Below, in pieces: positions 51,893 through 53,691 of a stretch of DNA of 64,000 nucleotides. Origin of the DNA: Methylophilaceae bacterium 11 (GTDB taxonomy: Bacteria > Pseudomonadota > Gammaproteobacteria > Burkholderiales > Methylophilaceae). The position numbers were made by a program, and so were the translations under genes. Under the pieces are notes generated by a model. The model worked only from the letters and a program-made list of their open reading frames with translations, was not told where the DNA came from and searched no databases. The stretch lies in assembly GCA_000525025.1 (NCBI GenBank), contig JCKJ01000001.1:2418001-2482000 (forward strand), given 5' to 3'. Positions within the stretch are counted from its first letter, which is position 1, and each line of letters begins with the position of its first letter.

Positions 51893-52385
51893 TTCGTTGC
51901 AACACTTTGTGTATCCACACGCATATGGTATCTATATATGAGCAAAACCACCCGTCTTTTTTGTGATTTAATCACTTGCTATGCTAATTTCATGTACTCA
52001 ATGTTGTAGCCCCCATTAATTCATGAATACATTTAGCTAGCCATACCAAAAGTGTTTAGGTGTGTGCTGATAACGCTGAAAAAAGTCGGTTTAAGTATTT
52101 CCAACTATGCCGTTGATTTCAAATGGTGAACATCTGTGATGTCGAACACAGCACCAACGCATCATGTTGGCCTTTAATATCCTTGCTCAAATGTTGAAGT
52201 TGTAATCCAGACCTCTGACCAACCTCATGTTGCATTACCAAAAAAATAACTATAAACTGCACAAAAGACAGACCTGTCTTCCTATTTATGTCAATTTATC
52301 ATGATATGGATGTATAGGACTAGCTTTGATCAGGCAGCATTACTAGTGCAATTATTTAAAACAAATATTTCAAGGGGAAATAAAG
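51893..52385. other. gene-free region, AT-rich, with tRNA remnant
   Basis: About 490 bases between the GGDEF gene and the small membrane protein. No credible coding frame is seen. The only recognisable element is the decayed tRNA-Ile 3' half at 52116-52166. The last bases hold AAGGGGAAATAAAG, the ribosome site of the next gene. Confidence 0.5.
52116..52166 (-). pseudogene. decayed 3' half of tRNA-Ile(CAT), probable attachment-site remnant
   Basis: The minus strand reads CAT.AT.CGTTGGTGCTGTGTTCGAC and on through a T arm to CACCA. It matches the intact tRNA at 53613-53691 from the anticodon to the 3' end. Nineteen bases (GTCGAACACAGCACCAACG, plus strand) are identical, with mismatches and an inserted base in the T loop and a ruined acceptor stem. 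It lies in the same orientation about 1.5 kb from the 3' end of the tRNA, the geometry left by site-specific integration into a tRNA 3' end. Confidence 0.7.
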
Positions 52386-52796
52386 ATGACTGAAGATAAC
52401 CATGCAGGCAATGTAATTTTACTTAGGACAGCCTGTATTACATTGCTTTTAGGTTTGGTCCTAGCGTGGTGCCTTGTGATGACTAGAGGCATGAAAATTC
52501 CTTACATGCTCAATATATTTACTAGCACTGACAACCTTTTATCAGGGCATTTAGATTTTCTAATGATGACGATGTTGCTATTAGGCTTTTATGCGTCAAG
52601 AATTAGATTGCCCAAGTTTGTGATTTGGCCAATGGCCCTTGGTTCTATAGGTAATCCAACAGCTTTTGTAGTATTGGCGATTTCTCCCAAAATTCACTCA
52701 CTTCCTTACATATTATTTCTATACACCACATTATCGTTAACGACTTTCGGTTTTGGAATGGCCGCAATTAAAGCGCTCAGATACTCCTTCAAATAA
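52386..52796 (+). CDS. small four-helix membrane protein of unknown function
   Basis: A 136-residue protein with four hydrophobic helices (about 12-33, 52-70, 76-98, 105-128). A conserved-looking motif SGHLDFLMMTMLLLGFY puts a histidine at the start of helix two. The layout (four helices, short loops, His in helix two) recalls the styrene-oxide-isomerase/HabA-type small membrane proteins, but I cannot confirm homology. It has a good ribosome site (AAGGGG). It lies inside the tRNA-flanked interval with a cytochrome b561, 50 bases upstream of that gene, so the two may be co-transcribed. Confidence 0.7.
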   Translation: MTEDNHAGNVILLRTACITLLLGLVLAWCLVMTRGMKIPYMLNIFTSTDNLLSGHLDFLMMTMLLLGFYASRIRLPKFVIWPMALGSIGNPTAFVVLAISPKIHSLPYILFLYTTLSLTTFGFGMAAIKALRYSFK

Positions 52797-52846
52797 CCGG
52801 CAATTCGTTTTGAGTGTAAATCTAGAAATTGGGGTTCAAAATCGCG

Positions 52847-53377
52847 ATGGGTATCGATCTTAAAAATTCAAATACACAATATGGTTTGATCGCTAGATCA
52901 TTGCATTGGACCAGTGTGGCGATGCTGTTAACTATTGTAGTGCTGGCTAGTCAGCTTGCAGGTAAAGTATCCGGACCTGAGAAGGTGGAATTAACCACAC
53001 TACATTCTTCAATGGGTATTATTTTTCTTGTGTTGATGATTGCTAGATTGACATGGAGAAACCTGAACCCCAACCCAATTCATTCTTACAGCATTAAAAC
53101 CTGGCAAAAACTGCTGGCTATTTCACTTCACAGGTCGATATACATCATCATCATTACACAATGTTTTTTAGGTATATTGGTATTATTCTCAACTGACCAA
53201 ACAACTTATTTTTTCGATTTGTTTGAGTTCCCGCCACTGCTTGAGAAAGCGAATCCAATTCATACAATAGTGTTAGGGATGCATTATGCAATCTCTGTGA
53301 TGATTTACCCCTTATTTGCTATCCACATTACGGCGGCCATCTATCATCAAGTTTTTGGCTTAGTAGAAGACAATTAA
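52847..53377 (+). CDS. cytochrome b561 family protein
   Basis: Di-haem b-type membrane cytochrome of about 176 residues with four helices. Probable haem-ligand histidines are in IARSLHWTSVAML, TTLHSSMGIIFL, MHYAISVMI and FAIHITAAIYHQVFG. The YGLIARSLHW start is typical of the bacterial cytochrome b561/YceJ group, which pass electrons between quinone and partner proteins. The ATG at 52847 is used; the open frame begins at TTG 18 bases earlier. It is within the tRNA-bounded interval, close behind the small membrane protein. Confidence 0.87.
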   Translation: MGIDLKNSNTQYGLIARSLHWTSVAMLLTIVVLASQLAGKVSGPEKVELTTLHSSMGIIFLVLMIARLTWRNLNPNPIHSYSIKTWQKLLAISLHRSIYIIIITQCFLGILVLFSTDQTTYFFDLFEFPPLLEKANPIHTIVLGMHYAISVMIYPLFAIHITAAIYHQVFGLVEDN

Positions 53378-53569
53378 TTAATAGAAAAGATTATCAGGTA
53401 GGGTGCCTCTGTACAAATGTAGCCCCCCCCTGTAATGAGCCTAGTCATAACGCTTAGCAACTTCTGGCTAATCAATCCAAATCCCCCACAACAAGCTGAC
53501 ATACAGCCATCAGTTTAGGCTGAAATTACCGTCATCTGTCATCTGTATTTGCTTGGCTACCTCACCAAA

Positions 53570-53602
53570 AACAAAAAAGACCCAAGGCGTTAACCTTGAG
53601 TC
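53570..53602 (-). terminator. intrinsic terminator after tRNA-Ile
   Basis: On the minus strand GACTCAAGG and CCTTGGGTC form a nine-base-pair stem with a six-base loop followed by TTTTTTG. It lies 11 bases past the tRNA 3' end. Confidence 0.88.
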
Positions 53603-53612
53603 TCTCTATCAA

Positions 53613-53691
53613 TGGTGGCCCCTCTGTGAGTCGAACACAGCACCAACGGATTATGAGTCCGCTGCTCTAACCAAGCATGAGCTAAGGGGCC
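53613..53691 (-). tRNA. tRNA-Ile (anticodon CAT, lysidine-type)
   Basis: The minus strand folds into a complete tRNA: acceptor GGCCCCT/AGGGGCC, D arm GCTC/GAGC, anticodon loop CTCATAA (CAT), T arm CTGTG-TTCGACT-CACAG, and an encoded CCA end. The GGCCCCTTAGCTC start and GCGGACTCATAATCCG anticodon arm match betaproteobacterial tRNA-Ile2, whose C34 is changed to lysidine to read AUA. The D loop (ATGCTTGGTTA) is two bases longer than usual. It lies just downstream of rpoD on the same strand. Confidence 0.93.

Follow-up and report, generated by a model that had tools for sequence, protein, structure and literature searches.

Introduction

Islands integrated at tRNA genes by tyrosine integrases, the kind that Islander catalogues (PMC4383910), carry a regenerated tRNA gene at one end and a displaced fragment of that gene at the other. 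The locus reported here has the same layout, and integrases are likewise found at its tRNA site in relatives; it differs from such islands in being a 1.5-kb remnant without integrase, and in that a tRNA terminator of its own arrives with every incoming unit. Within the same family, the additive island fGI-2 of 'Ca. Methylopumilus' is reported to contain the final 20 nt of tRNA-Lys in repeated copies (PMC10872708). Its serial tRNA-end repeats and small variable units resemble those described below, but it belongs to another tRNA, tRNA-Lys, and to another genus. The tycheposon fGI-3 of the same report starts at tRNA-Met(cat) and holds xerD and, among the genes named, cytochrome B561 (PMC10872708). 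Both fGI-3 and our locus combine a tRNA(cat) with a neighbouring XerD, and the site of fGI-3 is possibly the present one under another tRNA name; streamlined relatives have an ORF for a tyrosine recombinase upstream of rpoD. A tycheposon carries its tyrosine recombinase together with the tRNA-bordered element, whereas the interval studied here is without a recombinase. For strain 11 and strain 1P/1, which belong to one ecotype (AAI 98.9), tRNA- and recombinase-flanked islands and at least five hot spots have been reported (PMC4109929); the passages of that report considered here do not name this tRNA, the scar or the gene pair. Judged by title, no literature on Methylophilus genomic islands with tRNA and integrase was found.

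Here we present the features of the region downstream of rpoD in a window of 64,000 nucleotides, i.e. the whole stretch of DNA that was analysed, which corresponds to positions 2,418,001-2,482,000 of a single-contig genome of 2,786,829 bases (G000 in the comparisons). In our judgement the interval 52066-53612 is likely to have arisen through two or more integrations at the 3' end of tRNA-Ile2, followed by erosion in which a pair of genes was kept by selection. Scars of tRNA integration are of an ordinary kind; the new details are the hotspot at tRNA-Ile2 and the wiring of the pair, in a methanol-using bacterium. The features are listed in Table 1.

Table 1. Features of the interval between tRNA-Ile2 and the displaced flank, in window coordinates
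Feature	Position	Strand	Evidence
Decayed displaced terminator M, outer side of scar	52066..52123	-	Alignment to G109 flank
Scar: decayed displaced tRNA 3' half, anticodon to CACCA (gapped alignment)	52124..52166	-	Repeat match
-10-like TATAAACT, just before the operator	52251-52258	+	Promoter elements by eye
Operator AGACAGACCTGTCT, ahead of the pair	52266..52279	+	Pattern search
136-aa four-helix membrane protein, invariant His55, Asp57, Asn90	52386..52796	+	Alignment and structure model
Cytochrome b561, CybB/superoxide-oxidase-like	52829 (TTG; alternative ATG 52847)..53377	+	PF01292 E 9e-14; PDB 5oc0
Decayed copy of island repeat R	53437..53559	-	HMM from 14 relatives' copies, E 7.3e-8
Terminator T, the present terminator of the tRNA; hairpin and T run, -19.5 kcal/mol (50-nt flank)	53574..53607	-	T type after tRNA in 9 other genus genomes
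tRNA-Ile2(CAU), attachment gene, intact, downstream of rpoD	53613..53691	-	Anticodon CAT

The tRNA gene and its displaced half

ARAGORN labels the attachment gene as Met. Its best match in E. coli is an annotated tRNA-Ile (82.7% across all 79 bases) which adjoins dnaG-rpoD, the same setting as in the window, and on these two grounds the gene is regarded as tRNA-Ile2 and not as tRNA-Met, in agreement with the isoleucine assignment of the original prediction. A decayed 3' half of this tRNA in direct orientation, about 1.5 kb away, had been predicted as well and was recovered: the ungapped core matches at 24 of 26 bases (52141-52166 against 53630-53655), the two copies are in direct orientation at a spacing of 1,489 bp, and the tRNA itself is intact. 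The half copy is detected by BLAST against the whole genome with an E value of 7.9e-6. Searched for over 3.6 kb downstream of the gene, it has a local alignment score of 26; dinucleotide shuffles of the same stretch gave a maximum of 16, with none of 1,000 reaching 26, and other chunks of the window did not exceed 12. Chance similarity, in favour of which nothing was found, is against the shuffles and the genome-wide E value a practically negligible explanation.

The stretch between the repeats had been described as an AT-richer gene pair; its GC content (52171-53612) was determined as 38.3% versus 45.9% across the window. The decayed terminator outside the scar, the copy of R and the operator were not part of the original prediction. 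No integrase is present among the genes of the interval, in line with the integrase loss proposed there, and in a tblastn search for an integrase remnant near the scar the best match has an E value of 4.8 and lies on the side of the pair. A core XerD-type gene is located 8 kb away on the other side of rpoD.

The repeat R, about 150 nt in length (e.g. L104:4255-4428), is present in 15 of 22 genus genomes. In the islands of relatives it often stands just ahead of terminator T, and in the regions scanned it always has the direction of the tRNA. The copy in the window is seen by the HMM alone: BLAST at E 0.001 revealed none in this genome, and the next best HMM match in the window has an E value of only 4. 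An integron cassette array with attC-like sites was considered and is unsupported, the one copy of R that was folded being no more stable than its shuffles (z 0.30). Another contig of the genus, the 8-kb contig L143 (G110:C33), contains copies of R, T and the tRNA half about every 1.2 kb with single genes between them, in a cassette-like manner.

The displaced flank

Upon integration at a tRNA gene the original flank is displaced outward and the incoming flank comes to lie at the regenerated tRNA. The two flanks of the present locus are different: the tRNA of the window carries T, whereas the outer flank of the scar is of type M. When the outer 58 bases of the scar are aligned with the sequence following the intact tRNA of relatives, the score is 31 for G109 and 26 for G066, and a second copy in G066 gives 22, each value being reached by none of 2,000 mononucleotide shuffles; half and outer flank aligned together give 105 nt at 80% (E 1e-17) in the M-flank comparison. 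Flanks of type T score only 6.5-9. Those of types X and W score 11-16, values reached by 1 to 149 of 2,000 shuffles; since all flanks compared are terminators, a degree of likeness is to be expected. The M hairpin of the scar is worn, with -6.1 kcal/mol versus -18.5 in G109 and -20.4 in G066. Directly after M, G109 has an intact 353-aa tyrosine integrase, its C-terminus toward the tRNA (PF00589, E 2.8e-32), and G066 a 72-aa C-terminal integrase remnant (23.7 bits, below the cut-off of 27.1).

Because the old flank M lies outward and the new flank T at the tRNA, the scar is read as a 'half + M' that was pushed out by a later insertion of 'half + T'. The footprint of integration at a tRNA gene, as originally proposed, is thus supported by the displaced M flank, by the integrase sequences after M in G109 and G066 and by the hotspot described below; two or more events, rather than a single one, are recorded in the scar.

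According to this reading, an integrase-bearing element with terminator M would have integrated first, giving the order tRNA-M-int. A unit ending in T would later have integrated at the same tRNA, supplying a new 3' half together with T and pushing the old 'half + M' outward, with the b561/136-aa pair inside the displaced stretch. Deletion, possibly via recombination between copies of T or of R, would then have removed the integrase and the greater part of the two elements, leaving tRNA-T-R-pair-half-M as the end state. In it the pair is kept by selection, as an operon probably under a TetR-family protein that also sits at an mxaRSACKL-like cluster.

The insertion hotspot in the genus

Among the genomes with at least 2 kb of sequence after the tRNA, extra tRNA halves were found downstream in 11 of 19 genus regions (G000, G019, G048, G057, G066, G075, G081, G087, G093, G100 and G101). 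The extra half of G087 consists of 22 nt and T only, and extra halves of G110 are located on a separate contig. Between 2.3 and 74 kb of sequence were available after the tRNA per genome, and missing halves are therefore weak evidence; G036 and G103 were too short, and G105 had no tRNA match. An origin of the half in the window as a tRNA pseudogene fragment, produced by duplication and with no mobile element involved, would agree with its decay and with the lack of an adjacent integrase. This origin is very improbable, however, given such recurrent halves and given that the flank beyond the half copies M, found next to an integrase in a relative, and not the present flank of the tRNA.

The terminators right after the tRNA, whose types were named by eye, could be compared in 20 of 22 genomes: ten are of type T, four W, two M, one X and one D, and two are unlike these. 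Close species differ in terminator type after the same tRNA. At the tRNA-Ile2 hotspot of Methylophilus both the tRNA half and the terminator are replaced with each insertion, and terminator type can thus be used to trace earlier insertions.

Presence/absence polymorphism at the site is seen in relatives rather than in this genome. G081 and G099 share 94.6% identity over rpoD-tRNA and 98.4% over 14 kb of distal flank, but between tRNA and distal flank 4.0 kb are found in G081 and 0.09 kb in G099; the near-empty site of G099 still has a different 89-bp flank. In the comparison of G066 with G093, colinearity resumes (96%) just outside the respective tRNA halves. The tRNA-half arrays of G057 and G075 contain integrases; a T-type unit carrying an integrase was not found. 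The tRNA and the GGDEF gene are 1.7 kb apart in this genome, compared with about 4.4 kb in G050, 9.2 kb in G048 and 11.3 kb in G102. G048, G102, G050 and G022 fail to align with the window upstream of the GGDEF gene, and no exact empty site was found for the present genome. Like the lack of a T-type unit with integrase and the residual flank of G099, this counts against the proposed integrations.

Further copies of 'tRNA-Ile half + T' were observed at a second site in G101 (G101:C1:733989-743602, L186), beside another tRNA match. The arrays of G100 (position 25494 of the oriented region), G106 (2802) and G110:C33 contain pieces similar to the 3' portion of a different tRNA, with anticodon TTT by eye.

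Distribution and constraint of the gene pair

The 136-aa gene is present in 8 of 22 genus genomes (E 1e-35), each time with a b561 gene alongside, and the pair is missing from the other 14, including the sister genomes G048 and G102. Together with the filled and near-empty sites of G081 and G099, this distribution speaks against the universally conserved interval without empty site that would have contradicted the original prediction. Two Methylotenera-group genomes, G022 and G050, carry the 136-aa gene away from this tRNA. Both genes of the pair are convergent to the tRNA in the window, and in all six genomes with linkage the pair lies downstream of tRNA-Ile2 and is convergent to it. In G057, G075, G087, G101 and G106 a distance of 5.5-63 kb separates it from the tRNA, so that all recognisable halves lie nearer to the tRNA than the pair, and it adjoins a gene block common to these five genomes; for both reasons it could be resident chromosome there. 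This position outside the halves is the main evidence against regarding the pair as cargo.

The pair could accordingly be an old resident downstream of tRNA-Ile2 in Methylophilus that was never cargo. In the lineage of the window the half would have been placed beyond it by repeat recombination, and in other species elements would have been gained and lost in the space between the tRNA and the pair. Such a history would suit the uniform arrangement in the six linked genomes, the common neighbours in five relatives and distances that carry no transfer signal; but it is at odds with the absence of the pair from most genus genomes, sisters included, and with its different location in the two Methylotenera-group genomes, and simple integration at a tRNA leaves just the incoming DNA between tRNA and displaced half. 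We consider a resident pair unlikely and favour serial integration, in which the pair would have been cargo.

The pair of G000 is about as distant from the other seven as those seven are among themselves; by rpoD, in contrast, G000 stands apart. As rpoD is slow and the neighbour genes of the pair in the relatives are also at 80-83%, these distances prove neither transfer nor descent; the tree of the pair is poorly resolved and provides no proof of transfer. Between G000 and the seven genus relatives, codon positions 1+2 of the 136-aa gene differ by 0.04-0.08 and position 3 by 0.37-0.51; for the b561 gene the values are 0.15-0.21 and 0.42-0.54. Because positions 1+2 differ far less than position 3, both genes are under constraint. 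Of the retained beneficial cargo suggested at the outset, the retention is borne out by this constraint and the benefit is not; that the pair arrived as cargo is what we infer. A search for phage carriage gave 33 pattern matches in viral contigs, none of them a relative, and among plasmids two records were matched, at half coverage and 33%.

Predicted proteins

The nearest solved structure to the b561 of the window is E. coli b561 CybB/superoxide oxidase (5oc0; E 2e-7 over 160 residues). Four His residues, which we take to be the haem ligands, are aligned between the two. With a score of 37.1 the protein is missed by the CybB NCBIfam equivalog, whose cut-off is 170 bits, and unlike E. coli CybB it is paired with the 136-aa protein.

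The family of the 136-aa protein has no match in Pfam, NCBIfam or PHROG. Six Pfam families, each hit by 1-2 of 35 members with E values of 0.0011-0.091, were taken as chance. The alignment of 35 sequences contains 13 invariant columns, among them H55, D57 and N90, and the structure model (pLDDT 88, pTM 0.78) consists of four long helices. Foldseek returned 330 matches for the model, none of them at E 0.001; the best was a V-ATPase subunit (0.09). A styrene oxide isomerase was presumed from the motif, and VIA-align placed styrene oxide isomerase 8pnu at the top (Z 12.4, 2.7 A, 129 residues), a Z value that may be common among helical bundles; the next places were taken by a chain of complex I with 11.2 and by LTC4 synthases with values near 10. 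The invariant H55 lies in the second long helix and may be the counterpart of H58, through which styrene oxide isomerase binds haem (PMC11374702). No sequence match to styrene oxide isomerase was found; judged by the model, the 136-aa protein may have its fold. The functions of both proteins are putative.

In total 236 relatives of the 136-aa protein were found; 63 of the 80 listed are from organisms with 'methyl' in the name, the query having been built from Methylophilaceae. Among 23 loci of distant relatives taken from these 80, 7 have a b561 gene next downstream, and at 14 the divergent upstream neighbour is a large gene of regulator-like type (by eye AraC-like).

Operator and regulation

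The sequence ACAGACCTGTCT occurs three times in the genome: before the pair, before the gene of a 132-aa paralogue (29-31% identical to the 136-aa protein), and between an ORF260-TetR gene pair and a MoxR/DUF58/VWA cluster. At the last of these loci (G000 2,217,905-2,225,275, L157) ORF260-TetR is divergent from the cluster, and the 132-aa paralogue is next door. Across the genus the operator was found at 40 sites in 15 of 22 genomes, versus 5 for a reversed-pattern control, and it stands ahead of the pair in all eight pair-bearing genomes. Assignment covered 31 of the 40 sites: six are before the pair, seven before the paralogue, eleven at the MoxR cluster and seven elsewhere or unassigned. 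A TetR gene lies 0.9-1.4 kb from the eleven sites at the MoxR cluster.

The pair works as a two-gene operon, probably repressed by the TetR-family protein encoded at 2.218 Mb (2,218,433-2,218,987), whose binding to the operator is predicted from sequence. The gene order MoxR/DUF58/VWA suggests a cluster of the accessory methanol-dehydrogenase type, for which mxaRSACKL is the putative name; several mxaRSACKL-like clusters have been reported in these organisms (PMC4109929). The unnamed membrane-protein family around the 136-aa protein thereby comes with a ready regulatory hypothesis. As a tentative extension, the small four-helix proteins, a family centred on methylotrophs whose members would probably bind haem and share a distant likeness of fold with styrene oxide isomerase, might form a two-gene redox module with a b561 of the superoxide-oxidase type. 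This module would spread at a tRNA-Ile2 hotspot where the 3' half and the terminator are rewritten, and in Methylophilus it would be placed under the TetR repressor of an accessory methanol-dehydrogenase cluster and so be tied to a reactive by-product of methanol oxidation.

A probable group I intron in tRNA-Ile2 of relatives

In three relatives tRNA-Ile2 is split by an insert of about 210 nt (L113:1003-1212 in G022, L037:2404-2614 in G049 and L028:1109-1328 in G077), and the same split occurs in G007, G058 and G059. The insert matches a group I intron family with 46.6-48.9 bits (E in the region of 1e-9), just below the gathering score of 50. In G048, whose intact tRNA is without the intron, the displaced half continues directly into the final 51 nt of the intron (L105:3993-4043; 96%, E 5e-18). 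It seems that either an insertion took the intron out of the working tRNA, or the half derives from a tRNA in which the intron was present.
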